NCBI GenBank assembly: GCA_963924555.1
Contig: OZ004597.1
Span: 2,746,404 to 2,810,403 of the forward strand
Length of the DNA: 64,000 nucleotides
Reading direction: 5' to 3'
Source: Crambe crambe
Lineage: Eukaryota > Porifera > Demospongiae > Poecilosclerida > Crambeidae
This document shows positions 3,961 to 64,000 of the stretch, piece by piece. The position numbers and the translations under genes were made by a program. The notes under the pieces are model-generated. The model was not told where the DNA came from. It saw only the letters and a program-made list of their open reading frames with translations, and searched no databases. Numbering within the stretch: the first letter of the stretch is position 1; each line of letters begins with the position of its first letter.

Positions 3961-4057
3961 CACAGCAACCAACTTGTTTATGGTAATGGTCGTTATTATT
4001 TTCAAACTTTAGGTAATGATCGTTTTATTTAAAAGCAGCATTATGATGAAAAATTAA

Positions 4058-14192: not shown

Positions 14193-14574
14193 GTTTGAAT
14201 AACAACACTGCGATGAAATTAATTGCAACGATTAGCCCTGCCCTCTCTTTGATCATGTGATTGTAATTAAAAAACGCGATTCAGCCCCACCCCTAGCCCT
14301 ACCACACATACAGTCTCGCATCGCGTAGCCGTGCCTAGTTATGAATATAAATAGTCATCAGGAATAATATTTCTACAGTGAAAAGAATACTCCGAAAAAA
14401 GAAAAACAAAAAACAACAACAACAAAAAAACAAAAACAAAAACAACTCACAAAAGAGGACAACCTGAGGACAAAAGGCTGGTCCCGAGCATGTTCATTAG
14501 CTATTCAGAAGTTCCACTGTGCTGAGCTTCTATTCCTTGAATGATGTTTGGGTATGTCTGTACACAGACCACAT

Positions 14575-18743: not shown

Positions 18744-18924
18744 ATGACTTGTTTATTCTGTCATAAGGATCAGTAACTAGCTGCTATAATAGGGAATGTC
18801 CACATCCTACATGCTGGGAAATTATAAATAGGCTAGCAAACAACCAGCGAAAAGTTGAGAGTCCTATATATAGCAATAGTTCAGGAGCTAGCAGAGAAGC
18901 AATTGTGGCTAGCTAGGTAATATC

Positions 18925-25125: not shown

Positions 25126-25294
25126 GTTTGAATAACAGCACTGCGATGAAATGATTAGCCCTGCCCTCTTTTTTGATCACGTGATTGTAATTAAAAAAGC
25201 GCGATTCAGCCCCACCCCATATGCACATAGTAAATGTAATCTCTAGAGTATTCAATGGGTGGGCAATGTTAGTTAGATGTGCAAGTCATAGAAT

Positions 25295-26386: not shown

Positions 26387-27225
26387 TCAGAGGTACTCAA
26401 TTGAAGGCTCATCATCATCATCATCACCACCATTCTTTATGAATTCAATTATTACATTAACTTTTCCCTCTTCTTTTTCACCTCCACCTCCTTTAATTTT
26501 CTTTTGATGTAGCTATAGATTATCAGTAATGACCAATACTAGCTGATAGACATGCGTGAAAACATTACCTTAACCTCAGCATAAAGATTTTCATCCATTT
26601 CAACAGCAGCAGGATTGGATCTAAATTCACCTTCACCTCCTTTAATTTTCTTTTGATGTATAGATTATTAGCAATGACCAATGCTAGCTGCATGAAAACA
26701 TTACCTTAGCCTCAGCATAAAGGTTTTCATCCATTTCAACAGCGGCAGGATTGGACCTAAACACCTCATAGAAGTTGGTATTTTGTACACCACCAACACT
26801 ATCCAGCTGATCACCTCTAGTTCCAGGCCTGGCAATAAATCTTATCATAGCTACTTATAACCAACAGCTCTAAGTTATGTCCAAATAGAGGTAAAGTATC
26901 AGGCAATATTCACTTTTTTTTTCATAATTCAGCTCTTTACATATAGCTAGTAGAAATTTATAGGACAAAAGACAGAAGTTTAGGTCTATCTTATCAAAGA
27001 ATGTGTAACTTAACTTTCAGCTGGGGACTTTTATACTATTCTAGAATGAAACAGCTATAATGCCATAAGTAGCTACTCACAAAAATATCCTGTACTTCTT
27101 TTTCCGCCAGATATAAATAGCCACCACAATCACAATGACTATCATGAGGAGGATCCAACCAATCACAGCCAGTACAGTAGCAGCTGTCACTGTGGAGCTA
27201 ACACCACCAGATACACCACTAGTAC
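26387..27225 (-). other. Transmembrane segment and cytoplasmic tail of the left receptor
   Basis: Exon 27225-27081 encodes a Ser/Gly/Val stalk, a strongly hydrophobic helix (VLAVIGWILLMIVIVIVVAI) and a WRKKK stop-transfer. Tail exons are 26828-26705, 26649-26569 and 26500-26387. The first two both contain FRSNPAAVEMDENLYAE(A/V)K and result from a tandem duplication of about 150 bp that also copied the intron. The last exon begins with the same KIKGG sequence and ends with an Asp run and IEYL. Tyrosine motifs NFYEVF, NLYAEA, NLYAEV and IEYL could dock SH2 proteins if phosphorylated; they do not fit the strict ITIM or ITAM consensus. Confidence 0.82.
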
Positions 27226-42200: not shown

Positions 42201-45200
42201 TCGTGAAATATCTCCCCATATCTCACGCTGACTCGTGTAATAAGTCTTATATATATATATGTAATACCCAAAATAGACTGGGTGGATGATTCACTCACGA
42301 GTTTCTCCTGTATTGACGTAAAAGAATTCTGTGAAGGGCCCAATGCCAATGGTGAATGCAGCAACTCTGCAGCGGTATGTGTAGAAAGGGTAGAGGGGAC
42401 CGATGTTAATGCTAGTCTGGAGAGTATTGAATGTGTAGGTGGTATTGGTGACGACCTCTGTGACTTCGACCAGATAGAACTGAATGATGCCATTCACGTG
42501 CTCTGGAGGTAGTGGAGACCACATGACTGTAATCAGAGAAGGGCTACCTACTACTGGGTAGCCTGAAGGCATTACTGGTGCTGCAGTTGGAACTGTATAA
42601 TAGAGAAGATGAACTCAACACTTGTTAGCAACAGAATTTGTGAATTTGTGATAGTAGCAATAAATGAAACATGATTGTAGTTTCAAATTGGTCAAAAACT
42701 CGTGGCTACCAGTAGATATGGTCTGTGGAGATAGTCTAATATCAAAAACATGACAACAATTTTGTCACGGGATTTCTACCTTGGATTGTCATATCCATGT
42801 GTATGCACGATGTCAGTATATATATGTATAGCAAAAAATTAATTTTGTGCGAAAATTGAAGTGTGAACCATAATAAAAACCACAAATAAATATAAGCTGC
42901 ACTCACTATCTTGCAAGGTTTTAACTGTGAGAGCAAGTGACAAAGGACCAGAACCGACTGTGACTGCTTGTATCCTGATAGAGTAAGTGTTGAATGGATG
43001 CAAGTTGCCTACTGCAAGACTGGTTTGATCGGACAGTGTCTGATAAGTGAGCGTATTCCCTGTATCATTCTCGTAAGCTTCGATGATGTAGTATCGAATG
43101 ATGCCATTGTGTCTGTCACGACGGGGAGCCACCCACGAGAGATCCACTGATCTGGACATCACATTTCTACTTGAAAGCATCACTGGAGGTGCTTCAGGGG
43201 CATCCTCGGGAGTGGTTAGTGTGACATTGGTACCAAATGGTCCCTGACCCACTGAAGTGTGGGCAGCTATGATGCAGGTGTAAGCCACATAGGGTCTGAG
43301 AGAGGCGAGGATGTATGTGGTAACACCGGATCCAACTCGGAAGCTGCTGCTGCCCAGGCTTGAAGTAACGTTAATGGTGTAGTCTATTATGATGCCATTA
43401 ATGTCCTGTGGGAGGGGAGGGGCCCAGCTGAGGATGAGGGATCTGGAGTTATTAGCCATCAGAGTGAAATTCTGTGGAGGGCCAGTTGGGACTGCAAGGG
43501 AATGAAGACAACAAAATATTTTCAATGTGTGACACTTTTGTGACCTCTTAGAGAAAGGCATCGGATAACTAAGACACATTTATAATAGAAAATAGAACTT
43601 TTTAAAAAATTTTTTGAGGGTGCCAATCAACTAGCTATTTAGCTAATACTGGGGAACTTACCATCTTCAGGAGTCAATATCTGTCGTACAATAGTGGGTG
43701 GTCCAATTCCCACAGTTCCAGCCCTAACAGTGCAGTTGTACGTGGTGTATGGTCTGAGATTTGTGATGGTGATGGAGAACTGTGACGAAGAGATGTTGTG
43801 GGTCTCAGTGGAAAAGACAGAGGTCAGTGTGACCAGGTAGTAGCGGAGAATGCCGTTCTGCTTGTCTGCTTGTGGAGCCCCCCATGACAATGTTATGGTT
43901 CGAGAGTCAATGGGGTTGGTAATGAAGCTGGTAGGTGGACCTGAAGGAACTGCAGAAAAACACACATAACAACAGCATACATATGCTGCATTCATCCTAC
44001 ATTCCACCAAATGTGAACCCTTATGCAGAGCCAATTATAAGAATGCCGGACTAACAGGAAAATGGCCAGCCAAACTGCTGAACATTTGTCCCATGTCAGA
44101 TTTGTGATACTTATTGTCAACTTACCATCCTCCTCTGTCTGAATAGTGAAGACAGAGGTGTAAGGGTCCAGCTGGTCTGTATGAATAATGACAGAGCAGT
44201 GGTAAACATAGTAGGGATGAAGAGGACCAATGGTAATCTGCCGATCATTGGGAGGGGTTGTGTATTGGAACACCATCCCTGTCACATCTTCCGTTATGTT
44301 CAGTCGATACTCTCGGATGACACCGTTGACCTGGGATGGAGGAGGTGGTTGCCAGGTCAGATAGATGTGGGTGGAGTTGAGGGACATTCCAGTGAAGTTG
44401 AAGGGGTGGGTACCAGGGGCTGTGGGTGGATGGATGGATAAAGTGAACATGAGAAGCCACTGGCACACATCAATCAAGGAATGAATTTGGAAGGAGGTAG
44501 AGTTTATCCCATGGAAAATTGAGAAATACTTTGAGGGATTCAAATGAATTGCCTACCAGCTTCAAGAGTCCGAACTGTGACCACTGTACTGAAGGGACCC
44601 AATCCCACGGCCGTTCTGGCTGCTATGATGCAGACATAGCTGGTGTAAGGGGCCACGTTGGGGATGGTGAGGTTAGTGGTGGTGGACGTCAGCTGTGTCC
44701 TGGTTCCAGTGTCCAGGGATGTGATGTTGATGACGTAGCCGGTGATGACTCCATTGCGGTCGGACAGAGGAGGTGGCTGCCAGGTGATCCCTATGCTGTG
44801 AGCATTCACGGAACTTACACTTGGAGACTGAGGGGGAACACTCGGAACTGTAATTGGGTCAAGAATTGAGCAAGTCATGCGAATACTCAAAAAATAATGA
44901 TTGCACATCAGAGAAGTGATACTATAGCTATCTATACTCCAATGAATTTACAATCTCAGATTGGTTGCATGCAGCCTAGCTCACCATCTTCCGGTGTTCT
45001 AATGGTGACTACTGAAGTGTAAGGTCCCACACCAACAGTGACAGCAGCGACCACCCACTGGTACTCGTAGTTGGGATGGAGTGACGTTATCTCCAAGGAA
45101 GTCACTGTGCTCAGTCTCACAAATACACGGCCTGTGATGACCTCTGTTACATTGATTCTGTACTCTACGATGACTCCATTCTGGTGGTCTTGAGGAGGAG

Positions 45201-48200
45201 GGTCCCAAGTGCAGAAGATGGCCCTGGAGTTCCTCACCACAGTGGAGGGACTTTCAGGAGCCATGGTTGGGACTGCAGTTAGTGAGTGGAAACATGTGAT
45301 AATGGTCAGTAGCTTACAAAATTAGACTGATAGAACCAGCTAGCTTACAACAAGGCATGCAGACATTTTTGCAGTGCACTATATAGAAATATTCCCCTCC
45401 CCTCCCCCCTTGATTCTTGGACCTCTGTGTCTGACTAGCAAATTTCTAGCTAGCTCTTAAAGTTTGCTGTAGCTATTTAGCTATTGTTCTTGTGGATATT
45501 CTTTTTATCTTATAACAATAACAATCATAATACTAGCCACAACTGCTAAGGGGACAAATTAAGCACCCCTGCAATTAACATATGTAATAACAAACAACAC
45601 CTGACAGGGTCACACAAGGGGTCACAGACGATATTATGATAGCTATAGCAAGCAAAAGAGAAGGCTTACTAGCTTCGTGCATGTATAGTGCACTTGGCTA
45701 CATGCACGCTTATTATAGAGTAGTTCTCTCATGGGTAGTGAAGTAGGGATAGAGTAGTTGGTGTGGTTATTGAGATTAGGAGGGGAAGGCTCTCTTGTTC
45801 ATGAACTTTTTTACACAGCCATCCCATCTTGCATGTCTGTTTACGTTAGAGTAAATGGCATTTTTTCCGTCACTTGTTTGTCTGAGTTGCATGATTGCAT
45901 CATTGATTTAAAGGAAATAGCTACCACTGGCTGTCAACATTCCAAGTAAACAAATTTAACAGATGATTAGTGACAGCAATGACAGTTTGTGGGGGTAGAG
46001 GAAAGCCTGCTTGTTTGATCAAAGCACTTAGCTCCTGCTGACCTTGCATGAAGAATTAAGTACATAGCTAAGATGTATCCCCTTCATCCATACATCCACC
46101 ACACATTGAATAAATTTGAGTGGTTACAATAATTAGCACTTCTTCATCTTTTACTTTTACATACAAGGCTCTACATTGCATATGAATCACATGATCAATC
46201 TGTACATATTCTTGCATGTTTAACACCTGGTGCAATTTCTCTTGAGAGATGCGAAGAAAGAGTGATCCAAGCTTCTCTGCACAGGAGCTTGCCTCTTTCC
46301 TTGCTGTAATGTTTTGATAATACTCTGGTAGATAAGTTTGAGAAGAACAAGATCGATTTCTGGTTCAGTTTTCTTGTGAAAGCTCTCAGCACTTCGTACT
46401 TGGACTGAAAGACTCAGCAGACTCGCTAACTGTTCTGACTCTCCAACCTAGCTAGGGTACTTGCAAACATTACACCTGCATGGTGGGTGTCTAATTTGCC
46501 CAGTTGTGGCATCTCTAATTTGGGGTGATGATATACGTACTAATACATGGTTCATCCCTAAAATTTCCTAAGGGGGGGGGGGGGGGGGGGGGTGAGAAAA
46601 ACCAAAGGAGTCAGTGATTAGCAGTACAGAAACATACCATCCTGGGGAGTGACGAGAGTGAATTGACTGCTAAAAGGTCCTATTCCCACCGAAGTCACTG
46701 CAGCAATGATGCAGATATAGTTCCTGTAAGGAAGGAGGGAGCTGACAGTGAGGGAGGTCATGTTGGAGGTCAGCTGGAAACTCTGTCCACTCTCCACGAC
46801 AGTCACATTGATCACATAGTAGATGATGACCCCATTCTGCTGATCAGCAGGAGGAGGGTTCCAGGAGATGGTAGCGGAGCGAGATGATATTGCACGACCA
46901 GTGAAGTTGAGAGGACTGCCACTGGGAACTGTATCAAAGGGGAAAGGTCTGGTGGTATGATTGTATCAAAGGTCTGGCAGTTATTAAAAGGGAATGATGA
47001 TGTGATAGTGGAACCTCCTCTTACTGTGAATACATCTGAGGTGTGGTGATAGTTTTTCCACTTAAAGGCATGCTACACTGAAAATATGAAGAAAACTAGA
47101 AAGATGTGGGTAGGTCCACCTTGATAGGTTCCTAAATTTCAAGGAGTCCACATCCAACCAAAATATTGTGGCTCATACCATCTTCATATGTAGTAGTTCC
47201 AATAACTTGTGAGTAAGGCCCAACTCCAACGGTGAAGGCACTGATGACACACTCATACATGTAGTAAGGATGAAGTTCCCGAGCAGTGATGGAGGTGGTG
47301 GTACTGGTGAGAGTAATGTCCCTGCCAGTGATGACCTCAGTGATGTTGATCCTGTACTGCGTGATGACCCCATTTCGGTCACCTGCTGGAGGAGGGGACC
47401 ATGAGATGTTGATGGATGAAGAGCTGATTGGAGCAAGCCTCACATTCTGTGGAGGACTGGTAGGAGCTGGAGAGAAATTTGAATGAACAAGTATTGTAGA
47501 TATATCTGACAGCAGAAATCTTAAATGTGAGATGGATGTCCTCATTTATCTTGTAGCTGATTGGTTATGAAGTTCTGTGCATATGTGCATAACTATTTAC
47601 CATCTTGTGGAGTGACAAGTGTGAATCGAGTGCTGAAGGGTCCAATTCCTGCAGAAGTGACAGCAGCAATGATGCAGATGAAGGTGGTGTAAGGAGTAAG
47701 GTTGTTGACAGTGAGGGTGCTGGTGGTGGAAGTCAATTGGAAGGTCCTTCCAGTTTCGACAACTGTCACATTGATGACAGAGCGGATGATTGCTCCATTT
47801 TGCTCATCCAGAGGAGGTGGAGCCCACGTTATGTTTGCTGAGCGAGAAGAGGTGGGTACTGCATTGAAGTTCTCGGGAGGAGCAGTTGGAGCTGAAGGAG
47901 AAGGAATGTAATGGAGGGCAAATAAAATCACAGCAGCTACACAGCTAGTTCTGCAGAAAAATAATGATTTCCTCCCCCCATACTATAGCTACATGTACTG
48001 GTCTAATAGCACATTCTATAGCTGCACCCCTAAACAAATAACCTGTTTGTAGAGTAGTCGTGGATACAGATGAAGTGGCAACAGAAATAGGACCATAGAC
48101 ACTGATAGCTCTGATCACACACATGTAAGTCCTGTACTCTTGCAAGCCTGTGAAGGTGAAAGATGTTCCAGATGTGGACCTGGTAATGGTATCTCCCACA

Positions 48201-51200
48201 CTGCTGGTGAGGACGAGGTTGTATGTGGAGATCCTGTTCCTGATGGAGGGTTTAGGGGCTACCCAAACTATGGTGATGGTGGTCGTGCCTCTCGAAGTGA
48301 TTTGCACAAACCTAGGTGGGTCAGGTCTGGGAGGGGCTAAGAGTATAAGGAAAGGGAGAGTGGATAGCTATATTGTGAATATTCTAATAGATATAATCAA
48401 TAACAGCGGGTCAATATTACATTCATAACCTGCGTATGCTCTATTTCTGTCAGGTAATTATCACAAAAACAAACAAACAAACAACAACAACAGCATGCTA
48501 ACGTACGTGCACATATAACTCCATCTGAAGCCAATCCAAACCTGCAAGTGCATTGGAAGCTACCGACAGTGTTAGTGCAGTCGGAGGTGGTCGTGTTGCA
48601 GTTGTGAGTTCCACAGTTGGCTGGTGTGCCAAGACATTCATTGCATACATCTGTAGAATGGGGAGATTACAGCTATACATCTATTCTAAGGTAATTAGTG
48701 CAATCCATAAAGTGTTAGTCTAAAATTGCTCATAAATAGTCATAATAATTATTATACTGCACTCTCAGACTTTCCACTCCTCTCCTCACCTGTGCAAGTG
48801 AAGCCATTCCCAAGTGTGCCACTGGGACAAGCACACTGATAGCTACCAATAGTATTCGTACAGGTGGCAATGGCATCACAGCGGTCAGTACCACGAGAAC
48901 ACTCATTGATATCTATGGGATATTAAGGAATGATTCTAATCATAGAAAGTTTCCACTTCATGCTTCAGACCTCTGCATGTACTGCCACTGAGTTCATATC
49001 CAGTGTTGCAGTCACATCTGTAACTTCCTGGGGTGTTCACACAACGCAAGTATGATTGGCACGTGAACATCCCTGTACTGCACTCATTAATATCTGAAAT
49101 CAAAAATCAGGTGATTGATATTCTGTTCTATCATACTTATAAAGTCACATACGTACCAACACAAGTGCCTCCACTTTCCATGTAGCCATTTTGACAACCT
49201 GTTCATCATGGAATTACATGGTTTTATATCATGGAATATCAGTGTCGAAAGTATTGAGTAGCCATGGTTCACATACTGTGTAGCTACCTGTTGTGAAATT
49301 CCAAAATGATGTGCTGGTGACAGCAATTGATTCTTGGTTGCAAAACATGGTCCCAACAGCAACTCCTGCAATGTGCATGAATAATATATCCATGATTGCT
49401 ATGATGCAAGCCCATATTGTTGTGATGATACCCCTAAGCCATGCTATGATGCATATCCCTAGGCCATTAGGTAGCTCATGCAATATCTCCTAATTGTGAA
49501 ACATACCACTGTCAATCAAGATATAATGTGCAAGTCCAGTGGAGAAGCTGTGACTGATCCTGAAGGTGAGCACTCGACCACCACTACCAGCTGCCGGGTA
49601 TGTGGCTGAGGATGACGTCACATCAAAACTATACACAAGTCTTCTGCTCATTTGCTCATAGAATCTGATGTACCTTCTCGAGCTGGGTCGGGAAATCTGC
49701 ATCAAGATATTTGTGGAAAGAAATAATGCATGAATAAATCACAGAAATCCAAAATCATTCACTGAAATTTCATACTTTTACCATCTACAAGAGCATGCAG
49801 GTGAAAAAAAAAATCAATAGCATATACTTGTTCTCAGAGCTGTATTAGCTATGCTTTAAGAGAATTATTACTGTCTAAAAGAGCTAGTGAAAAAATTCAA
49901 GAAAATTCCATATACTCGTTCTCAGGGCTATTCTTTAAAAGAGGCTAATTGGGTTGAAATAGAGATCTGCAGTGTATGCCTCATTAGTGCCACTTAGCTG
50001 GAATCTTGTATGGTGTTTTATGTACGTATCCTATCATATCAATTTACAGCCTTATGCCATTATTGTCAACTTACAGCCTGATCAAATGTAATGCTCCAGG
50101 TTGTTGATGAAGTAGGTGAGAACCTTCCGATAGGTGAGACAGAGCTTTGTGAAGCTTGTGGTCCAGTAACTGTCAGGGAAATCAGATAATAATAATGATT
50201 ATAATAGTTTTTTACATGGTTGCCATTACCTCCACCCAATAGAGTGATACATGAGCGATTGGAAACAAGGCTGCATAATAAGAAGATAAAGAAAATAGCC
50301 CATCTCTACCACTTCTATAAATTGTGCATCATAAAGAAGTGGTTGGGCAGCTAGCTGGCTACCAGTTAATAGCTACTTAGTATTCTCGGGATATAATAAT
50401 ATTTTTATGGAGTCTAGAGCCTACAATGTACATAATTATTATTATGTGCCTCAATTTTCAGCTCACTTATTGCTACTCCTGGCACTGAAGCAGAAGATGT
50501 TAATCCCTCTCTGGGATGTTGTGGAGGTCCAAGTGACATTAATGTAGTAATGCTGTGTGTTGTATGCACTCCTGGTCACACTTGACTTCCTCAACCCCAA
50601 TGGTGATGATGTAGGGAAATCCACTATGCTATTTGTGAAAGGAAGATCAGGAGATAGTATCACTCATAATAATTGGCAGAAGTTAAATTTTACATTCATT
50701 TCACCTCAAGCTAGGACTGCAGTAACTTGCTCAATTCTCAACAGAGTGATCAAATCTCTATTGACATTTTAAAGTAGGAATTTGGTCAAGAATTAAGGAA
50801 GTTATAACAGTTATAGCAAAAATGAATTCAAACTATAGTTAACTCTTTACCTGACACTGGAACCACCAGATGATGCCACAATTCCAGCAGTATATGTAGT
50901 TCCAAATGGTACAGCAATACATGACCCATCAGGAGGGGTCTCTCCAGCTACCAATGAAGGCTGGATACCTCCTGTGCAAGGCTGGCTGGAGGAAAAGAGG
51001 TTGATGAGAAACTGGAGTGGGACACTGCTCAAGGGAGTAGTGCTTGAGTTTGATATGAAGTCTTCCACTTGAACGGCCGCAGCATACCATCCAGTGGACC
51101 GAGTTGCAGTAGTCCAGGAAAGAGTGCAGGTGTTCTGATGGAAGAAAAAAGTCTATACAGTGAACCTCTACACTATATAGTGAGCATAATATATATCCAA

Positions 51201-52457
51201 AGATGGACTATAAATATAATAGGAGTAGCATTTAACATTGATGGGTTCCAGTATGATGAAGCTCTCCACGGATTGTTGTTATGATAACATGATAGCTAAT
51301 GACAGCCATAATTATTAGAAGGAAAAATAATAATGGAGAGTTGCCATCTTATGTTATAATAATATTACCATGACATCAACCATGGAGAAATTTCAATAAG
51401 TGGTGTATGTTTAAACTTCAAGTTGGCTCTACACTTGATAGATACAGTAGCTAGCTAAATTTTACATACCGAGTCTATCACAGCTCCAGGTACGGCCTGA
51501 CAAACTCCTGCACATTCATTTCCCAAGGACCATCTACAACGAACGACATCCCTGTCAGGATCTTGAACTGGTATTCTGAGGATGTGGGTGCAGCCTTGTT
51601 GCAGTCGTATTATGGGTGTGGTGGAAGTGAGAGGGGAGGAGTTCACTCTTCCATTGTCAGGTCTCCTTCCTAAGTTTCCTGAAACTCTGAGAGCCCACCT
51701 ACCACCTCCAACATTCAGACGTATCCAATCACGTCCAGTAAAGCTGTATCAATAATATAATCACACATACCAAGCCAAGTTATATAACAAAAGAAAATTA
51801 CATACCAAGTAGTTAATACTAATGGTGTCTTGTGTGATTATTTTCTACTCATATCACATCAATTAACTGTCCAAGCTCTTCTCTGACATTTTCAAGACTT
51901 ATAAATTATGCTGAGCTACATGCCATAACTCAAGACTTATACTATAGATGTCCAAATTGTACTTTTAGCCAGAAGTTGAGTTCACTTACGCTGCTGCAAA
52001 GGAGGATACTGAAGTTCCTATGTCGTAGACGTAAGTCCTTTCACCAGCCACCCAATCTTCAGTAGTGCTAATGTCGGTACAATAGAAAGTTAAAGATCCC
52101 ACTGTCCCACTACACCCAGAAATACAGGAGAGTACACCATCTCCAAAGAGTCTACTTGTAGAGCCAATATCAGCTGTGTTGCAGCGCGTCCAACTTGCAA
52201 ATGATCTCCTCCAAGCCATGCGGTGAGTTATTTCAATCTATGAGAAGTAAACAATGATTCAACTCTTTGAAGAGGTTATAGCTGAATCAAATAGACAAGC
52301 AAACCAAGACATACAAAGTACAATGGAAACTCACTCTTCCATCAAAATTCTGAGCATTCAAAGGTCGCCATTGAATAATGCCACCCCTAAAATGCGAACC
52401 CTTGATAATTTTGCTCAGTCCCAGCATCATGATGAATATCAACATTTTGGACTCCAT
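26387..52457 (-). CDS. Giant EGF/FN3 single-pass receptor, left copy
   Basis: A complete gene on the minus strand of about 58 coding exons. The start is ATG at 52457, right after an acceptor (CCACCAG|ATG), so a noncoding first exon is likely. Product in order: signal peptide; an unfamiliar N-terminal module of eight exons plus a short joining exon; EGF-like domains (48971-48507 region); 39 FN3 domains (48336-27287); a membrane helix (27225-27081); and a cytoplasmic tail of about 105 residues ending in PSIEYL. I estimate over 4,500 residues. It should be a cell-surface protein with a very long, heavily N-glycosylated ectodomain (many NVT/NIT sequons). The repeated FN3 consensus is NGII..Y, TG, L.P...Y and A.T.G.GP. 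No named orthologue is recognised; adhesion or recognition is inferred. It lies head to head with a diverged copy starting at 54667. Confidence 0.85.
27287..37971 (-). other. FN3 domains 19-39 of the left receptor
   Basis: One exon per domain unless noted. 37971-37684, 37244-36957, 36794-36504, 36374-36087, 35987-35691, 35608-35324, 35121-34828, 34563-34276, 34046-33759, 33635-33348, 33168-32881, 32700-32416, 32196-31906, 31710-31414, 31260-30964, 30733-30446, 30170-29880, 29483-29196, 28860-28471 (an enlarged domain with an acidic insert), 28406-28215 with 28027-27926 (one domain over two exons), and 27804-27653 with 27514-27416 and 27362-27287 (one domain over three exons, next to the membrane). 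Nearly all are symmetric phase 1-1 exons, which allows gain or loss of domains without a frame change. The introns contain no other gene that I can support. Confidence 0.85.
37484..37609. mobile_element. Fold-back element, TAGCCTCG family, with 7-bp target duplication
   Basis: A palindrome of about 112 bp (37491-37602) runs from GTAGCCTCGTCCCCAGG to CTTGGGGACGAGGCTAC, with a second nested palindrome (ACGAAGAAAAGGTAAAG and its complement) in the middle. It is flanked by CATACTG on both sides (37484-37490 and 37603-37609). It lies in the intron between FN3 domains 19 and 20. Confidence 0.8.
37988..38046. repeat. Tandem duplication of about 27 bp
   Basis: TTATATTAGTACTGTATGTT plus CCTT occurs twice in a row in the intron between FN3 domains 18 and 19. 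Confidence 0.7.
39113..39148. repeat. (CAAA)n microsatellite
   Basis: CAAA repeats in the intron between FN3 domains 16 and 17. Confidence 0.85.
39867..40020. repeat. Tandem duplication covering an FN3 exon end and its donor
   Basis: A unit of about 78 bp with CCCACCTTCCCCC, CCCCCTGCTTACTGTATTCA and TCAGT occurs twice. The copy nearer the exon includes the true 3' end of FN3 domain 15 (boundary at 39982). The second copy lies in the intron and repeats the exon end plus its donor. Confidence 0.75.
41970..42252. mobile_element. Palindromic element, GTGTAATAAG family, left copy
   Basis: The end nearest FN3 exon 11 is a hairpin of about 105 bp (42150-42252): CTTATTACACTCGTCAGC, AGATATGG and AGATATTTCACTCG are mirrored by CTCGTGAAATATCTCC, CATATCTCACGCTGAC and CGTGTAATAAG. 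About 180 bp of flanking sequence (with CAAGGGCTGCTAGGC and TAGACTTGTTAGTTGTGACA) is also shared, inverted, with 55424-55757. No coding capacity. Confidence 0.7.
46572..46592. repeat. Run of 21 G
   Basis: A pure homopolymer in the intron just downstream (gene sense) of the FN3 domain 4 exon. On the coding strand it is poly-C. The length may be affected by sequencing error. Confidence 0.85.
48507..49198 (-). other. EGF-like block of the left receptor
   Basis: Exons are 49198-49157 (short, CQNGYMESGGTC), 49093-48971 (DINECSTGMFTC..C..C.C), 48912-48790 (DINECSRGTDRC, ending NGFTCTG) and 48650-48507 (CNECLGTPANCGTHNC..C..CTC). DINEC starts are typical of calcium-binding EGF domains. The introns are 60-150 bp. 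The block joins the N-terminal module to the FN3 array. Confidence 0.87.
49288..52457 (-). other. N-terminal module of the left receptor, family not recognised
   Basis: Exons are 52457-52335 (signal peptide, then GSHFRGGIIQWRP), 52237-51990 (WTRC..TADIGSTSRLFG, CISGCSG, FYCTD, EDWVAGERTYVY), 51743-51470 (WIRLNVGGGRW, RLQQGCTHILRIPVQDPDRD, VRCRW, ECAGVCQ), 51134-50851 (VEDFIS, SVPLQFLINLFSS, CTGGIQPS, TPPDGSCIAV), 50628-50467 (VDFPTSSPLG, YYINVTW, GINIFCFSA), 50270-50230, 50169-50075, 49696-49507 (RRYIRFYEQMSRRL, SFDVTSS) and 49365-49288 (GTMFCNQESIAV). Phases agree throughout. The Cys content and glycosylation sequons fit an extracellular fold. It is kept in the right copy, so it is under constraint. 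Confidence 0.8.
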
Positions 52458-53479
52458 CTGGTGGAAAATATTAATTATGAGGTCAAAGACATATAATATT
52501 ATGAAGGTTAATGGTACATTAAATGAAGTTAATGGAAGGAGGTACCAACCACATGAGTGTTAAGATATGCATGTGCAAGGGGATGAAGTCACCGAGCAGC
52601 TGTGCAAGTAAGATCAAGGATCAAAGCAGAATTATTCACTTTTCCTCCACACGTGTCCCCCAATAGACATATTAACTGAGCTGTTTTCTCACACAAACTG
52701 TAGTGATTAATCAGGAGCTGACAGCTGTAGCTGGATTAGAGATCTCATTCGAATATTTTTGAGTTTATTTCGACCTTTGCTTTAGTGGTTGCTTTATTGA
52801 GAAGGATTCATGATAGCAGCTCATTTTCATATGTACATGTTGGTCCACTGAATCTTTACAAATATTCAGCTTGACTGTTGCTCATTCTTGAGATAAAGCA
52901 GGGAAATTCTGTTTTTCGTTACCTTCAAATATTTTCCGAACTAGAGCCACTGGGATTTCTGAGCTCTAAATTGTATATTTACCTATCTTCAGAATACAGA
53001 ATTATCCCACCATGGAATTGCTTTGCCTTACCTTAAATAGCCACAGATGACTTACTCACTATTCTGTAGTTAGCTATACGGCTCAATAGCTAGATAGAGC
53101 TTACAGAGGCTTACTTTTCTCGCACTTATGCACCCCTTACTTGTAGCTTGCTACCTTGTGGCTACTAATCAAGCAATTGTGGTAGCTAGTTGTTAAAATG
53201 GTACAGCTAGCTAGCTATAATTATCATAAACAGCTGTGCTCAGTCGCTTTCGAGTTTAGCTAAATATAGCTAGCTAATAATTATTTGTAACATCACATGA
53301 TAGCTTCGTGTAGTTAGCTATTACTACTGCATGGCTATCAGATTCTGATATTTAAATAAGCTATTTATTTACTACTAGAGCTAATGAATTTCACCTTGGA
53401 CTCTCAACTTTTCCGCTGCATGGACTTTTGCAGATGGAAATGACGATCGCCTTTTCTAGCAACACTATTGCCGGAGTAC

Positions 53480-53489
53480 GCGCATGCGC
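53480..53489. promoter_or_regulatory. NRF-1-like palindromic site, left arm
   Basis: GCGCATGCGC within GTACGCGCATGCGCAAAATG. It matches the animal NRF-1 consensus and is mirrored at 53640-53649. Confidence 0.5.
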
Positions 53490-53639
53490 AAAATGATCAT
53501 CGGGCCTTTACAATGAACTTTGACTTTGACAGCATGAGCGTACCACGTGCCATAAAGCAGAATATTCCGGTTTGCAAGATTCCCGAAAACCGGAGTAATT
53601 ACCACCGAGCTGAAAACTTTTGATCATTATGATCATTAT

Positions 53640-53649
53640 GCGCATGCGC
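53640..53649. promoter_or_regulatory. NRF-1-like palindromic site, right arm
   Basis: GCGCATGCGC within ATTATGCGCATGCGCGTAC. It is the mirror of the site at 53480-53489, symmetric about position 53564.5. Confidence 0.5.
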
Positions 53650-54666
53650 GTACTCTGGGCCCTAGCCGGCCGGCCCTAGAAAAGGCGATCGTCATTTCCA
53701 TCCGCAAAAAAAGACAGCGGAAAAGTTGAGCCCAAGGTGAGATTCATTTATTTTAGCTCTAGTAGATAGCTTGCTAATTTTAGTTATTTAAATATCAGAA
53801 TCTGATAGCCAGCAGTAGCTGCTAGCTGCAATGATGGGGATGTTACAAAAAATAATTATTAGCAATAATTATTAGCTAGCTATAGCTAGCTAAACTTGAA
53901 AGCAGCTGCATGAGCACAGCTATATTATAGCTAGCTGTACTATTTTTAACAGCTAGCACAACTGCTTTGAGTAATTAAGGTAACAAGCTAAGGGGGCGTG
54001 TATGAGTGAAACTAGCTAATAGCTGTAAATGAGCAAGTAGCCATAGCTAGCTACAAAATAGAAAATACTGGTCGAGTAAGTCATCAATTTTGGCTTGTCT
54101 AATTCAGTTATAAGGTAAAGCAGGGCAATTCCATGTGTGGGGTAGCTAATTCTGTAATTTTCTTGAAGACTTCTATAAGGTCTGACTTGAAGACAAAAAG
54201 GTAGATATAATTTTGACTCAGTTCAGAAATCCCAGTATAGCTAAGCTGAATTTGATCAACAATTCAGTGTACCAACATATGAAAATGAGCCACTATCATG
54301 AATCCTCCTTGATATAGCAAGCAATGGTCGAAATAAACTCAAATTTCAACAAACTAATCCAGACTTTAAGGGATAAAGTTACTCCAGATCTTTGAATCAT
54401 CTGGTTACAGCATCCCAGAGTCTCAGCTCCTGATTATTCACTACAGTTTGTACAAGAAAACAACTCTAGGTCAATATTAATAATTAATTTTATTACGTCT
54501 ATGTGGAGGAAAAGTAATTCTGTTTCGATCCTTGATCTTACTTGTGCAGCTTCTTACTGACTTCATCCCGTATCTTAATGTTCGCGTGGTTGGTACCTTC
54601 CTCCATTAATTCCATTTAATGTACTATTAACCTTCGTTTTTGACCACAAACAATATTTTTCACCAG

Positions 54667-56131
54667 ATGGAGTCCAAAATGTCGATATTCATCATGATGT
54701 TGGGACTCAAAATTGTCATGGGTTCACATTTTAGGGGTGGCATTATTCAATGGCGACCTTTGAATGCTCAGAATTTTGATGGAAGAGTGAGTTTATTTGT
54801 ATGTCTTTTTTGTTTGTTTTGCTTGTCAGCTAAAACTTCTTCAAAGAGTTGAAAGATCATTATTTACTTCCTCATAGATTGAAATTACTCACCGCATAGC
54901 TTGGAGGAGATCAAGTGGAGGAGTGCTCTGCACCACAGCTGATATTGGCTCTACTAGACTCTTTGGAAGTGGCACACTCTTCTGTTCTTCCGGGTGTAGT
55001 GGGACAGTGGGAACAATGTCTTTCTATTGTACTGACTTTAGTGCTACTGAAGATTGGGTGGCTGGTGAAAGGACTTATGTCTACAACATAGGAACTTCAT
55101 CTTCCTTTATAGCAACGTAAGTTATAAGAGAACTCAGCCATTTTGTAGCTAATTTATAATTTGCACATGATACTCAAATTATCTCAGCCTTGCAAAGTAG
55201 TGATAATGCTGCACTGTTTGCATTCCTTTCCTAGGCCTTTTCCCTTAGTTAATTTTTGTGCACTGCATGCAGCAGGCACACACGTATACACATGTGCAAT
55301 GCTTGGCAATAGGTATTCCAAGATATTAGGTCTATACCATCCCCCAGGTCATTCCTACATAGAGAGCTACCTCTCTCTGGTGTATACTGGATAACTCAGA
55401 TAGGATTGGAGTATTTTAAATATATAAGACTTATTACACGAGTCAGCGTGAGATATGGAGAGATATTTCACAAGCCGAAGGCAAGTGAAATATCTCGCCA
55501 TATCTCACAGCTGACGAGTGTAATAAGTGATTTATTCTTACAGTGCACAACGTATGTCACAACTAACAAGTCTAAGGAGTATTTATAGCCTCATATAAAC
55601 ATCTGTAGGAAGCTGTTATGAGAACCTGTAATATCACCACGAAGCACTTTAGATAAGCCTAGCAGCCTACCAGGCCCTACAAATAACTAATGCACTTTAA
55701 TAAACCCGCTGTAAGATTCAATTAAGCTTGCCTATCATCTTCAGAAATGTCGGCTAAAATCAAGCTAGATTGTTTTCTACAGCCTTTTGTCATAGAGGCG
55801 CTACTTATCTAAATAGATTATCTAGTAGGCGCTTGGCTTATCTAAGTGCTTGTGGTAGCTAAGTATTTACAGCTTTCTATGTATGGAACTTCCCTTTGGA
55901 ACCACAACTTACATGACTCTTGTCTCTGACAGCAATAAGCACTGGAGCCTATCAGCTGCTCACTTGCTCACTGTCAGATGCAGCACATTGCTATAGTAGT
56001 CATTGTAGAGGCTCTAGGCTTATTTAAGTACTTTGTTACATATAAACTCAACAGCAAGATCTTTTAAAGAGTTGTAGCACTAACTTGCTTGCTCGCTCGC
56101 TGTCAAAATTAATGTTGCACATTGCCCTAGT

Positions 56132-56166
<35 letters not shown>

Positions 56167-59100
56167 TTATATATCAGTTATTCTTCATGTTGTTGGATAT
56201 CTCTGAATGTTGGAGGTGGTGGTTGGTCTGTCAGAGTCTCAGGAAACTTAGGAAGGAGATCTGACAATGGAAGAGTCAACTCCTCCCCTCTCACTTCCAC
56301 CACACCCATAGTACGACTACAACAAGGCTGCACCCACACCCTCAGAATACCAGTTCAAGATCCTGACAGGGATGTTGTTCGCTGTAGATGGGCCTCAGGA
56401 AGCAGTGAATGTTCAGGAGTTTGCCGAACCCTACCTGGAGCAGTGTTAGATTCGGTATAGACAAATCTTTATGAACTTTAGCTAGCTACTCTGAATGCAT
56501 GGCCCATCAGGTGTGGACTCATGGAGCCAATACAGTAGCTAGAGACCTTTCTCCATAGTGATACCATTGGTAATGCCATGGTATTCTCCATTAATTTTGC
56601 CCTCAAATAATAGGGCATCCATTGCATCATAACACCAATCTCATGCATGGAGAGAAGTGAAACATAGTGTAGCTACCCGAATATGCAGTGGAACCTTTCA
56701 ATGATACAAAATCTCCCCCACAAAATGAGCTCTAATTGGGACATTCTTTTTGGTCCCAAAACATCTGCACTCATTGAAAAGTTCCACTAGTAGGTTAACA
56801 TTGAAGTTGTAACAAAAAAGTGTATAGTGTGTGTTTTAGCATACAGCCTTTATAGACAGGCTTCATTATACTGGAACCCATCAATGTTAAATGCTACTTA
56901 ACTCTTAATTTCCTACATTTAATCCATCTTTGAAATAAGAATATATCACTCTAATTAGGACACTTTATTGGGGCTCACTAGTGTAGAGGTTTACTGTAGA
57001 CTTATATTTTTCTTTTCATTAGAACACTTGCACTCTTTCCTGGACTACTGCATCTCGGTCCGCTGGATGGTATGGTGCGGCCTTTCAAGTGGAAGACTTC
57101 ATATCAAGCTCAAGTACTACTCCAATGAGCAGTGTCCCACTCCAGTTTCTCATCAACCTCTTCTCCTCCAGCCAGCCTTGCACAGGAGGTATCCAGCCTT
57201 CATTGGTAGCTGTGGAGACCCCTCCTGATGGGTCGTGTATTGCTGTACCATTTGGAACTACATATACGGCTGGAATTGTGGCAGCATCTGGTGGTTCTAG
57301 TGTCAGGTAGAGCTGTAGCTATAGTCCATTTTCTCCCTTGATTGCTATAGCTGTTGTAACTTCCTTAATTCTTGACCAAATTCCTGCTTTAAGACGTCAG
57401 TAGAGACTGAGGTTTATCATCTCCCTCTGTTAAATTTAATCAAGTATTGAGAAAACTACTGCATGGTATTAGCTATACTCTGACCTTTCTTTCACGAATA
57501 GTATTGTGGATTTCCCTACATCATCACCATTGGGGTTGAGGAAGTCAAGTGTGACCAGGAGTACATACAACACACAGCATTACTACATCAATGTCACTTG
57601 GACCCCCACAACATCCCAGAGTGGAATCAACATCTTCTGCTTCAGTGCCAGGAGTAGCAATAAGTGAGCAAACCAATGATAATTATTAAGATGTGTAGAC
57701 TCTATAACAAAAGTCGCTATCACAGTTGACAGCTTAGGAATACTAATTAAGCATTTACTGGTAGCCAGCTAGGTTCTGCTTAAGTTTTATGCATAATTTA
57801 TAGAGATGGGCTATTTTCAAAAATCTTTATCTTCTTATAATGCAGCCTTGTTTCCAATCGCTCATGTATCACTCTATTGGGTGGAGGTAATGGCAGCCAT
57901 GTGAAAAATTCTTATAATCATTATTATTATCTGATTTCCCTAACAGTTACTGGACCACAAGCTTCACAAAGCTCTGTCTCACCTATCGGAAGGTTCTCAC
58001 CTACTTCATCAACAACCTGGAGCATTACATTTGATCAGGCTGTAAGTTGACAATAATGGCAAGACAAGGCTGTAAGTTTATATGAAAGCATATACTTAAA
58101 ACACCAAGATTCCAGCTAGTAAGTTGATCTGAAAGTGGCAAATCTCTATTTCAACCCAATTAGCCTCATTTTAAAACATAGTGTATGAATTTTGCACCTG
58201 GTCTTTTATCTCTGAGAAGGGGTAAATTTGAAATTTCAGTGAATTTCCGTGATTTATGCATGCTTTCCACTTCCCATTTATTCATCATTATCGAATATTG
58301 ATGCAGATTTCCCGACCAAGCTCAAGAAGGTACATCAGATTCTATGAGCAAATGAGCAGAAGACTTGTGTATAGTTTCGACGTGACATCATCCTCAGCCA
58401 CATACCCAGCAGCTGGTAGTGGTGGTCGAGTGCTCACCTTCAGGATCAGTCACAGCTTCTCCACTGGACTTGCACATTATATCTTGATTGATAGTGGTAT
58501 GCAATTTGAAGTAGGAAATATTGAGCTTGCTACTAGGGGTATATGCATCATAGCATGGCTTAGTGGTATCATCACAGCAATATGGCCTAGGGTATGCATC
58601 ATAGCAATCATGGATATTGCACATTGCAGGAGTTGCTGTTGGGACCATGTTTTGCAATCAAGAATCAATTGCTGTCACCAGTACATCATTTTGGACTTTC
58701 ACAACAGGTATACAGTATATGTCATTATACTCTCAACACTGATATTCCATGAAAAAATCTTAAAACCGTGATGAACAGGTTGTCAAAATGGCTACATGGA
58801 AAGTGGAAGCACTTGTGTCGGTATGTGATTTTATAAGTATGATAGAGTAGAATATCAACCTGATTTTTGATTCCAGATATTAACGAGTGCAGTACAGGGA
58901 TGTTCACGTGCCAGTCAAACTCTCGTTGTGTGAACACTCCAGGGGGTTACAGATGTGACTGCAACTCTGGATTTGAACTCAGTGGCAGTACATGCAGAGG
59001 TCTGAAGCATGAAATGGAAGATGTTCTATGATTGAAATCATGGATTCCTTTCTTCATAGATATCAATGAGTGTTCTCGTGGTACTGACCGCTGCGATGCC

Positions 59101-62100
59101 ATTGCCACCTGTACTAATACTATAGGTAGCTATCAGTGTGCTTGTCCCAGTGGTACACTCGGTAATGGCTTCACTTGCACAGGTGAGGAGTGGAAGTCTG
59201 AGAATGCAGTATAGCTATGTATGACTATTATCAGTATAGCAAGTTTTAGACTAGCTATTATGATTGCACTATAGGACACAAGAGATCTAGAAACTTCTAG
59301 AAGACCATAAAGGTCATGAATGACAAACAAGATAATAATAGGGTGATACATACCTATAGCACATCCTAATTAAGTCATACAAGTACATATCAAATAATAT
59401 GCCCTATGTATAGAGTGGATGTATAGCTAGCTGAAATCTCCCCATTCTTCAGATGCATGCAATGAATGTCTTGGCACACCAGCCAACTGTGGAACTCACA
59501 ACTGCAACACGACCACCTCTGACTGCACCAACACTGTTGGTAGTTTCCAATGCACTTGCAGGTTTGGATTGGCTTCTGACGGAGTTACATGTGCACGTAT
59601 GTTAACATACTGTTGTTGTTGTTGTTGTTGTTGTTTTTTGTTTGAGTGATAATTATAGAGCTTGCAATAACTATCCTAAATATTTAACATATATCCACTC
59701 TCCCCTTCCTTATTCTAGCCCCTCCCAGACCTGACCCACCTATGTCTGTGCGAATCTCTTCAACAGGCACGACCACCATCACCATAGTTTGGGTAGCCCC
59801 TACACCCTCCATCAGAAACAGGATCTCCAAGTACAACCTCGTCCTCACCAGTAGTGTGGGAGATACCATCACCAGGTCCACATCTGGAACATCTTTCACT
59901 TTCACAGGCTTGCAAGAGTACAGGACTTATACGTGTGTGATTAGAGCTGTCAGTATCTATGGTCCTATTTCTGTTGCCACTCCATCTGTATCCACGACTA
60001 CTCTACAAACAGGTTATTTATTTAGGGTAGATGTATGAAGAATGGATGTGCAGTGTGATTTTAATTGCTCTCAATTGCATTCCTTCTCCCACAGCTCCAA
60101 CTGCTCCTCCCGAGAACTTCAATGCAGTACCCACCTCTTCTCGCTCAGCAAACATAACATGGGCTCCACCTCCTCTGGATGAACAAAATGGAGTAATCAT
60201 CAGCTATGTCATCAATGTGACAGTTGTTGGAACTGGAAGGACCTTCCAATTGACTTCCACCACCATCACCCTCACTGTCAACAGCCTCACTCCTTACACC
60301 ACCTTCATCTGCATTATTGCTGCTGTCACTTCTCCAGGGATCGGACCCTTCAGCTCTCGATTCACACTTGTCACTCCACAAGATGGTAAATAATTATGCA
60401 CATAATTATGTCACAGCTTCGATTAACCAATCAGCTACAAGATAAATGAGGACATCCACCTCTGTAATTGCATGGGACACTTTCAGATTTTAGATTTCTG
60501 CTCTAATGTAATGCTTATTTCTTTACTATTCTCTCCAGCTCCTTCCAGTCCTCCACAGAATGTTAGGCTCGCTCCAATCAGCTCTTCATCCATCAACATC
60601 TCATGGTCCCCTCCTCCAGCTGGTGGCCAAAATGGGGTCATCACACAGTACAGGATCAACATCACTGAGGTCATCACTGGCAGAGTCATCACTTTCACTA
60701 GCACCACTACTTCTATCACTGCCCGGGGACTTCATCCTTACTACATGTATGAGTGTGTCATCAGTGCCTTCACCATTGGAGTGGGACCTTACTCACGAGC
60801 TATTCGAATTACCACTCCTGAAGATGGTATGAGCCAGGTTTGATTTGGTGCCATTCCCTTTAATAACCACCAGACCTTTCCTGTTTAATACTTTTAATGT
60901 CCCTGATTTTGACCTTTACAGTTCCCAGTGGCAGTCCTCTCAACTTCACTGGTCGTGCAATATCATCTCGCTCCGCTACCATCTCCTGGAACCCTCCTCC
61001 TGCTGATCAACAGAATGGGGTCATTATCCGCTATGTGATCAATGTGACTGTTGTGGAGAGTGGGCGGAGTTTCCAGCTGACCTCCAACATGACTTCCCTC
61101 ACTGTCAGCTCCCTCCTTCCTTACAGGAACTATATCTGCATCATTGCTGCAATGACTTCGGTGGGAATAGGACCTTTTAGCAGTCGATTCACTCTCGTCA
61201 CTCCCCAAGATGGTATGTTTCCGTACTGCTACTTGTCTACTGGCTCAGTTTTTCTCTCCTCCTCCTCCTCCTCCTCCTCTTCCTCCTCCCCTCCCCTCCC
61301 CCTCTTCCTCCCCCTTCTTCCCTTCCCCTCCTTTTCCACCTCCTCCCCTGACTTAAATCAATTACAAACTTTTCAATAAAATAACTGCAGAATTTAAAAC
61401 CTGAACACTGGTGCAATAGCCGGGAAATTTTAGTGATGAACCATCATTTCCTGGTATTAGTATACCCTGTTAAAAATCTCAGGAGTAATCATGACCCAAA
61501 TTTAGGGGTGCCCATTACTGGACAAATTAAACACCACTACTAGCTGTATTTCATAGATAACAGCCAGTCTGACAAAAGTATTGCTTCCAGGTGTGCATAC
61601 TTTTGGTTAGTAGCTAATTCATCTTGTGGCTACATTATCAGTGTTCTTAATAGCACTTTGGACATCGCTATTCTACGTATTTGACACTCAAACCTAACTA
61701 GGATAATTGCAAACATTAATGGAGTTCATTGGATAATAACAAGGTACACCTGCATGAGTACCATGGGCTATCCTAATCAAAAAGAAGCCAACTACAAACC
61801 TCCCCACCTTAGCCTCTATGAGATGCTAACTACAATGAAAATGTTCCCGAGCAAGGCTTCTGTGTGATGAATATAGCTGGCACCATTCTTCCTATATATC
61901 TTTCAAGTAACTTAACCAGAAATCTTGCTCTTCTCAAACTCATCTACCAGAGTATCATACAACAAGGAAAAAGCATGCTCCTTTGCAGAGAAGCTAGTCT
62001 CCATTTCTTTCAAGAGAAATTGCTCCACCTGGTGTTAACCATACAGATTAATCATGTGATTCAAATGCATTCTACACAATGTAGAGGAGCTTTTGCTGTA

Positions 62101-64000
62101 AAAATAAATAAAGAAGAATTAAGTGTAACCACTCAAATTCATTCAACGTGTGGTAGATGTTATGTTGTTTATTCTTCATACAAGGTCACCAGGAGCCAAG
62201 TATTTTTGATCAAGCAAGCAGAAAACTGTAAACTTGTCTCCAGACAACTCTACCCCCACAAACTGTCATTGCTGTCACTAATCATCTATTAAAGTTGTTT
62301 ACTTGGAATGTATGGTATTTCCTTGAATCAATGATGCAATCATGCAACTCAGATAAACAAATGAATTTACTCTAAGTAAACAGACATGCAATAGGGTGTG
62401 TAAGAAAAGACAATAGGGATGGCTGTGTGTAAAGTTCATGGACAAGAGAGCCTACCTCTCCTAATTTCAATAACCACACCCATATTACCCAACTACTCTA
62501 TCCTTACTTCACTCCCCATGAGTGCCCTCATGGGGAGTGAAATAGTTCTCTGATAACCATCAGTATTATGCTAAGTATCCTATCCCTTTCTTGATATTGG
62601 AGTTTCACTAAAGTTGACAGTTCATTTAGACTGGTAGAACATGATGTGCACAATTTTTGAGGGAGATTTTGTGTTTAAAAGGAGGGAATATTGGGGAGTA
62701 ATTTTGTTGAGTTAAAGTATCCAGGAGTTATGAAAACTCCTAAGGTATTTGCGATTACCATACTAGCGGAGTCAGTAGCTAGCTATATTAATTGCAAATG
62801 ATGCCCTACACATATTGTTTGAGTCCAACACCACTTTGTAAGCTGCTGACCATTATCATGTATTCCACTGACCATTATCACTAACTGCAGTCCCAACCAT
62901 GGCTCCTGAAAATCCTTCTGCTGTGGTGAGGAACTCCAAGGCCATCTTCTGCACTTGGGACCCTCCTCCTCAAGACCACCAGAATGGAGTCATCGTAGAG
63001 TACAGAATCAATGTAACAGAAGTCATCACAGGCCGTGTGTTTGTGAGACTGAGCACTGTGACTTCCCTGGAGATAACGTCACTCCATCCTGACTATGAGT
63101 ACCAGTGGGTGGTCACTGCTGTCACTGTTGGTGTGGGACCTTACACTTCAGTAGTTACAATTAGAACACCAGAAGATGGTGAGGCTGGTAGCTGCATGCA
63201 ACCACTCTTGAGTATATGTACCCCAAGCTTAGAATATCATTGCGCACAGTGTGTATGAAGTGTATATTAAAACTGTACTACAGTACTATGACATTCAGTG
63301 TTGACAGAATGTTTGATAGAACTGCTCAATTTTTGTGTACAGTTCCAAGTGGTCCCCCTCAGTCTCCCAGTATGAGTTTTGTGAATGCTCGAAGCATAGG
63401 GATCACCTGGCAGCCACCTTCACTGCCTGACCGTAATGGAGTCATCACCGGCTACGTCATCAACATCACATCCCTGGACACTGGGACCAGGACACAGCTG
63501 ACTTCCACCACCACTAACCTCACCATCCCCAACCTGGCCCCTTACACCAGCTATGTCTGCATCATAGCAGCCAGAACGGCCGTGGGATTGGGTCCCTTCA
63601 GTACAGTGGTCACAGTTCGGACTCTTGAAGCTGGTATATAGGACATTCTAATTAAATGTATAATTTTCCATGGTGATACACATTCTTGCTTCAAACTCGT
63701 TCTTATACATACACTTGATTGTTGTGATCAGCTTCTCATCTTTATTTTTGTCACAGCCCCTGGTACTCACCCCTCCAACTTCACTGGAATGTCCCTCAAC
63801 TCCACCCACATCTATCTGACCTGGCAACCACCACCTCCATCCCAGGTCAACGGTGTCATCCGAGAGTATCGACTGAACATAACAGAAGATGTGACAGGAA
63901 TGGTGTTCCAATACACAACCCCTCCCAATGATCGGCAGATTACCATTGGTCCTCTTCATCCCTACTATGTTTACCACTGCTCTGTCGTTGCTCTTACAAT
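54667..64000 (+). CDS. Giant EGF/FN3 receptor, right copy, cut by the window end
   Basis: The exon order is the same as in the left copy. 54667-54786, 54878-55116, 56178-56454, 57023-57306, 57502-57663, 57846-57886, 57947-58041, 58307-58496 and 58630-58707 form the N-terminal module. 58779-58820, 58877-58999, 59060-59182 and 59453-59596 are EGF-like. 59719-60012, 60095-60385, 60539-60826, 60922-61212, 62891-63178, 63343-63633 and 63757 onward are FN3 1-7. All frames are open and splice phases agree, so the copy looks functional as far as it can be seen. It differs from the left copy by scattered substitutions and small indels: the signal peptide has one residue fewer, and the second module exon has SGGVLCTTADIG where the left has ASWTRCNTADIG. 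The intron 55117-56177 carries about 850 bp that the left copy lacks. Confidence 0.85.
55424..55757. mobile_element. Palindromic element, GTGTAATAAG family, right copy
   Basis: The hairpin at about 55428-55535 (ACTTATTACACGAGTCAGCG to GCTGACGAGTGTAATAAGT) is followed by sequence matching the reverse complement of 41970-42130. It lies in the second intron of the right receptor, where the left copy has no such insert, so it arrived after the inverted duplication or was lost from the left arm. Confidence 0.7.
56128..56168. repeat. (TTTA)n microsatellite
   Basis: About ten TTTA units, just upstream of the acceptor of the third coding exon of the right receptor; they may extend its polypyrimidine tract. 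Confidence 0.9.
61213..62890. other. Large intron between FN3 domains 4 and 5, right copy
   Basis: It begins with a TCC/C-rich tract (61256-61350), at the place where the left copy has its 21-base G run. Much of the remainder matches the left intron 45273-46637 in inverted orientation. The open frame 61864-62292 has no matching open frame in the left copy and is not considered coding. A short palindrome around CTCATGGGGAGTGA lies near 62513-62541. Confidence 0.6.

Follow-up and report, generated by a model that had tools for sequence, protein, structure and literature searches.

Two head-to-head giant receptor genes

A 64,000-bp stretch of the genome of the sponge Crambe crambe (assembly GCA_963924555.1, contig OZ004597.1, positions 2,746,404 to 2,810,403; this whole stretch is the window, and all positions below are window coordinates) contains a left gene, L, and the 5' part of a right gene, R, which lie head-to-head in an inverted repeat and both appear intact. 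L and R belong to a local array with further copies, C1 to C5 (Table 1). Flanks of 200 kb were added to the window, and the joined DNA comprises 264 kb.

The predicted product is a type I membrane protein of roughly 4,500 residues (mapped residues total 4,502, a rough figure because some border pieces are misread and split codons are excluded). The exon order is N1, in which the ATG is followed by a hydrophobic leader, then N2-N7, three EGF exons, the fibronectin type III (FN3) exons F1-F39, the small exons X1 and X2, a transmembrane (TM) exon and a cytoplasmic tail exon (CT). By count there are about 39 FN3 domains, as two of them share one exon and the final ones are split. Mapping by a collinear chain recovered all 53 mapped L exons in R; collinearity is a property of the chain method, recovery of every exon is not.

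EGF_CA matched at or above the Pfam cut-off in all three EGF exons of L, and fn3 above its cut-off in the four FN3 exons scanned (of 39); the remaining FN3 exons, the leader and the TM stretch were assigned by alignment and by eye. In L, R, C1, C3 and C4 the 42 EGF and FN3 exons contain no in-frame stop, and AG/GT stands at the modelled borders of 40 of them in L and 38 in each of R, C1, C3 and C4; the misses are ascribed to roughly set borders. The splice-border check in R covered these EGF and FN3 exons. Outside the EGF and FN3 exons, stops occur in X1 of C1, C3 and C4, where the frame is uncertain, and in N6 of C2 and C3, where the border is uncertain; R has none.

Each of the six full-length array places has one TM exon. 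The tail is short, at about 60 residues, and its tyrosines lie in FYEV/FYEQ and LYAEA, YYNEV or YDEV contexts. FN3 domains, EGF domains and a single TM make this an FN3-type type I receptor by composition. FN3-rich receptor phosphatases and kinases and large FN3 adhesion proteins likewise have an FN3 stalk and a single TM; unlike the receptor phosphatases and kinases, the genes described here encode no catalytic domain and only the short tail. A receptor tyrosine kinase or phosphatase is ruled out, since the modelled coding region stops about 60 residues past the TM without any enzyme domain. Sponge aggregation factors are characterized by Calx-beta and Wreath domains, neither of which was hit in a Pfam scan of 10 pieces, a part of the protein.

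Table 1. Coordinates of the inverted repeat, its genes and the receptor gene array
Feature	Position	Strand	Basis
Left arm of inverted repeat	26500..53500	-	self-match and flank comparison
Right arm of inverted repeat	53629..64000, on to ~82,525 outside the window	+	self-match and flank comparison
Spacer between arms, 128 bp, centre 53,564.5	53501..53628	.	self-BLAST
GCGCATGCGC element, inner end of left arm	53480..53489	.	motif count
GCGCATGCGC element, inner end of right arm	53640..53649	.	motif count
Dispersed multicopy repeat inserted in R intron 2	55413..56139	+	self-BLAST and genome matches
L, modelled coding region (ATG 52,457, stop ~26,684, 53 mapped exons)	26684..52457	-	open stretches, splice borders, paralogue mapping
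R, N1 to FN3 domain 7 (rest, to ~82.3 kb, outside the window)	54667..64000	+	exon mapping
Three EGF domains of L	48505..49106	-	EGF_CA 27.3, 43.0 and 44.4 bits, cut-off 27
TM exon of L	27081..27225	-	hydrophobic stretch by eye
Tail exon of L, cytoplasmic, with tyrosines in FYEV and LYAEA and without a catalytic domain	26684..26840	-	modelled sequence
N-terminal cassette of L (exons N2-N4), nearest C1 in 4 of 5 sliding windows	50851..52237	-	window identities
R exons N2-N4, N-terminal cassette, nearest C5	54878..57307	+	window identities
Start of tract FN3-5 to ~FN3-11, R with C3/C4/C5 and not L	62890..64000, to ~66.3 kb	+	trees, identities
L, array place	26.7-52.5 kb	-	array order
R, array place	54.7-82.3 kb	+	array order
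C1	84.6-110.5 kb	-	array order
C2, truncated, only N1-N7 and EGF1 found	~123.8-129.8 kb	-	exon mapping
C3	130.7-155.5 kb	-	array order
C4	157.2-182.4 kb	-	array order
C5	~184.4-208.8 kb	-	N1-F13 mapped; 3' part matches C1, C3, C4

Structure of the inverted repeat

Self-BLAST of the window confirmed the inverted duplication that an earlier note on this DNA had followed as far as FN3 domain 7, and the repeat extends beyond that domain over the whole genes. The arms, given there as at least about 10 kb, measure about 27 kb (left) and 29 kb (right); each arm is a whole gene, and the right one continues about 18 kb beyond the window. The match consists of separate pieces running from 44,178/63,998 inward to 53,500/53,629. 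BLAST of 43,000-53,500 against the reverse complement of 53,629-64,000 found 22 pieces with a summed length of 9,076 (overlaps kept). No inverted piece was found by BLAST in any of 20 two-base-block shuffles or in one unrelated 10.5-kb control, which rules out a chance origin of the match.

The spacer lies where it had been proposed, at about 128 bp around 53,564. In the genome, a piece spanning it (53,495-53,640, 146 bp) matches only itself and one place on contig C21, and the latter match covers 53,498-53,530 only (33 bp, 97%). Such a partial match elsewhere argues against the spacer being a mobile element.

L and R are 94.0% identical in exons and 78.1% outside them, so that the arms differ by 6% and 22%, respectively. 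The insertion of about 850 bp seen earlier corresponds to R intron 2, which by self-BLAST is about 815 bp longer than L intron 2 and contains a dispersed repeat. At least 131 genome-wide matches to this repeat were listed, the best 40 of 1437 first-look candidates being scored, and a relative lies at 42,000-42,257.

The outer arm ends fall near the point at which the array unit ends in C1 and C3. The mirrored intergenic DNA described in the earlier note is present, but array members share upstream DNA; because the arms stop near the unit end, the mirrored region is largely what is expected of two facing members. The interval that separates R from C1 (82.5-84.1 kb) is disordered. Broken FN3-27-like (F27-like) exon pieces lie at 83.1-84.1 kb.

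The receptor gene array

The pair is not an isolated palindrome: the array comprises six apparently full-length genes and one truncated copy, and R is its sole inverted member. Seven close copies of N4-type exons were found on the contig that holds the window (contig C20), that of R alone on the plus strand, and six copies of the FN3-2 exon at 91% or more, five on the minus strand and one on the plus strand. C4 and C5 are a recent duplicate pair, with 97.9% identity over a 7.8 kb alignment (170.9-178.6 versus 198.0-205.7 kb); C5 was read without ~194-198 kb. No published account of this array was found in literature searches on such loci, which were not exhaustive.

More distant N4-type exons, at 40-60% identity, occur on two other contigs, at 2.75-3.32 Mb of contig C5 and 7.15-7.21 Mb of contig C1 (contig labels, distinct from the gene copies). 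Two of those on contig C1 lie in very long open frames of 890 and 2,194 residues.

Kinship of L and R

The whole-gene phylogeny included L, R, C1, C3 and C4; the truncated C2 was excluded, and C5 was compared in its 5' part only. Over 20,264 gapless columns of the five copies, identity is 0.894 between L and R, 0.857-0.863 from L to C1, C3 and C4, and 0.864-0.872 from R to these. Two-state informative sites support L+R 780 times, C3+C4 202 times and L+C1 119 times, with every other split at 104 or fewer; C3+C4 is compatible with L+R, and the largest split in conflict with it is L+C1. Approximately unbiased (AU) tests, which covered the four best topologies per block, rejected the best topology without L+R for block A, the upstream block of 450 columns, for columns 3,300-4,800 and for each of the four blocks that lie between column 9,000 and the 3' end (p <=7e-4 throughout). 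Since L and R pair at both ends and over most of their length, these comparisons show them, at the level of sequence, to be a real inverted duplicate pair from one gene, which would have originated by inverted duplication or by tandem duplication followed by inversion.

The latter origin, in which R is an old tandem member inverted in place and not a one-step inverted duplicate of L, is a serious alternative that we place somewhat short of even odds. It agrees with the minus-strand orientation of all other full members (five of the six) and with arms that end near the array-unit end of C1 and C3, as expected for a break at a unit border. The close kinship of L and R, seen at either end and through most of the gene, speaks against it, although either order of events can yield such kinship, and the disordered DNA between R and C1 is not decisive.

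Synonymous divergence (dS) between L and R is 0.137, with a ratio of nonsynonymous to synonymous divergence (dN/dS) of 0.27; dS from L or R to the other copies barely exceeds this value, at 0.153-0.159 (Nei-Gojobori counts, own script; X1 and CT excluded from whole-gene dS totals). Both genes are shown to be open where checked and to evolve under purifying selection. These values also bear on the possibility, raised with the earlier note, that two haplotypes of one gene were misjoined head to head in the assembly. Sponge haplotypes can differ strongly. Some haplotypic duplications did exist in this assembly, as 18 were removed in curation according to parts of its description (PMC12166358). 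However, the arms have diverged by 6% in exons and 22% elsewhere, the dS of L to R is near that to neighbouring paralogues, the exchange partners of L and R differ (see below), the 264 kb of joined DNA contains no N, and the same parts of the description report 459-fold HiFi coverage and Hi-C data behind the assembly (PMC12166358). An assembly artefact is therefore extremely improbable.

Segment exchange across the array

Exons N2-N4, the N-terminal cassette, do not follow the kinship of the genes that carry them. In five consecutive sliding windows over N2-N4, identity between R and C5 is 0.930-0.968, whereas that between R and L is 0.792-0.825 in four windows and 0.897 in the fifth; L and C1 share 0.870-0.925. 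C4 and C5 fall to 0.775-0.833 in four of these windows (0.940 in the fifth), compared with 0.892-0.950 in the N5-N7 windows and 0.975-1.000 from EGF1 to FN13. C5 lies 150 kb from R. Synonymous divergence gives the same contrast: R-C5 dS is 0.058 in N2-N4 versus 0.162 in N5-FN13, and C4-C5 dS is 0.193 versus 0.038. In the six-copy N2-N4 tree R groups with C5 at 100/100, while C4+C5 is recovered at 98.2/98 in N5-EGF3 and at 100/100 in both F1-F4 and F5-F11. A second tract, FN5-FN11, places R with C3-C5 at 99.8/100.

Runs of concordant sites were assessed by permutation tests, which are inflated by the mosaic history of the genes. In the 5' part, the longest run was matched in 0 of 5,000 permutations for each of three pairs: R-C5 (R 56,559-56,792, within the cassette), L-C1 (L 50,052-49,858, not in the cassette) and R-C4 (R 63,226-63,305). 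Two L-R runs near 50.2 kb, with 19 and 17 sites, had p values of 0.0006 and 0.002. Over the whole gene, an L-C4 run of 35 sites (L 34,157-34,093) and an L-R run of 33 concordant polymorphic sites (L 38,705-38,605, R 68,996-69,120) were each matched in 0 of 2,000. Windows, trees and runs together show that segments, namely the N2-N4 cassette and the FN3-5 to FN3-11 tract of R, appear to have moved between array members whatever their orientation.

The earlier note expected the arrangement to promote conversion between the arms. The evidence supports another pattern, in which the clearest exchange tracts join an arm to other array members (C1, C4, C5) and not arm to arm, and the arm-to-arm runs are confounded by the sister relation of L and R. 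A palindrome kept by arm-to-arm gene conversion in the manner of Y chromosomes is accordingly very unlikely: the L-R runs of 33, 19 and 17 sites would fit it, with the inflation noted above, but arm identity is 89.4% at gapless columns and 78% outside exons. The arms of Y-type palindromes are more than 99% identical, and the arms of L and R fall well short of near-identity, with no sign here that they are kept alike by conversion between them. The likeness to such palindromes lies in inverted, gene-bearing arms around a spacer, as parts of PMC3403216 describe them. Hairpin-mediated rearrangement, also suggested earlier, left no sign in these comparisons, in which no dedicated search for it was made.

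The centre and a candidate promoter element

The inner end of each arm carries GCGCATGCGC, which occurs six times in the 264 kb compared with 0.08 expected from base composition. Five of the six occurrences lie upstream of L, R, C1, C2 and C4; the motif was not found upstream of C3, nor in the examined DNA upstream of C5. It resembles the NRF-1 consensus. Its distribution makes GCGCATGCGC a possible shared promoter element of the array, and the facing promoters of L and R, each with a copy about 1 kb upstream of the ATG, may be co-regulated.

A divergent pair in an array of putative adhesion-type receptors

The reading we favour, with a probability of roughly 0.8, is that L and R are a divergent pair of members in a local array of giant adhesion-type receptors between which segments have since been exchanged. 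Exchange may have proceeded by gene conversion or by double crossing-over. The N2-N4 cassette would encode part of the predicted membrane-distal module, the long FN3 stalk would hold this variable, putatively ligand-binding N-terminal module away from the cell, and signalling may pass through the tail tyrosines and SH2 partners. The inverted orientation itself is probably without special function.

Several points weigh against this reading. The exon models are predictions from conserved open stretches, splice borders and paralogue mapping. The N-terminal module has weak Pfam matches, all below cut-off (SIBA-E_N, E 0.0015, in one of three members; He_PIG, best E 0.0069, in two of three), and no PDB sequence matches it at E up to 1. 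In AU blocks B1, B2 and C of the five-copy alignment and in smaller pieces, the tests accept topologies that contain L+R as well as some that lack it, and single tracts and their borders are therefore unsure there. The firm cassette result depends on the inclusion of C5, whose pairing with C4 lacks support in the upstream block (11.2/49). Over the 15 pairs of six copies, dN/dS is 0.30-0.65 in N2-N4 versus 0.09-0.26 in N5-FN13; by these counts it is raised in the cassette yet below 1, which is no demonstration of positive selection.

In kind, the inverted pair is ordinary: opposite-strand neighbours are a known minority arrangement in tandem arrays. Parts of a survey of vertebrate tandem arrays give 72-94% of neighbouring pairs as parallel, with convergent and divergent shares from 3% to 14%, and treat opposite-strand pairs as long inverted repeats, possibly harmless after loss of symmetry (PMC2547482). 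The L/R pair fits this picture. Like divergent tandemly arrayed genes, L and R are adjacent paralogues on opposite strands with a common origin; they differ from the vertebrate cases in belonging to a sponge, in their size (about 26-28 kb and 53 mapped exons) and in exchange across orientation with further members of the array.

The chief interest of the locus lies beyond the original claim, in the exchange of the N-terminal cassette, inverted member included, which is its most interesting feature. C4 and C5 are 97.5-100% identical from EGF1 to FN13, yet they differ by 17-22% over most of N2-N4, and in these exons C5 nearly matches R, the inverted copy. A role of these receptors in recognition may be inferred. 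An allorecognition or immune-recognition locus with the cassette as determinant of specificity is conceivable, if unlikely: the cassette has been swapped on a near-constant background, its dN/dS exceeds that of N5-FN13, and receptor-like pieces adjoin the array, a weak point. Against this, dN/dS stays below 1, gene arrays commonly exchange sequence whatever their function, and the argument is drawn from the sequence of a single assembly. The fuller version, a self/non-self locus with near-constant stalks of about 39 FN3 domains whose specificity is diversified by N2-N4 cassettes moved by conversion, inverted copy included, is more doubtful still. If individuals differ in this cassette, the locus would offer concrete candidates for sponge tissue-recognition receptors.

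The Alr genes of Hydractinia form a cluster of recognition genes. Botryllus fuhc and the sea urchin SpTransformer genes are likewise clusters of recognition genes, as the present array may be, but their domains differ. In parts of a sponge survey, expanded SRCR-like domains are described, also in combination with FN3 (PMC4772301), and parts of a study of Amphimedon grafts report adhesion and aggregation-factor genes without significant enrichment (PMC5450542). The receptors behind sponge tissue recognition appear to be unsettled.

Other features of the window

No tRNA gene was found in the window. A protein-kinase-like exon lies at 2539-2925 on the minus strand (Pfam E 0.00055, below cut-off). 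Receptor-like pieces lie at 15316-16006 and 18921-20530 on the plus strand; of four open stretches scanned there, 15665-16006 matches fn3 weakly, below cut-off, and the other three do not match it, and a TM-like stretch near 20.3 kb was judged by eye. A direct repeat of about 1.1-1.3 kb (12994-14293 and 24095-25218) is 77% identical, and short runs of tandemly repeated units of about 70 bp occur at 6126-6313 and 8048-8312.

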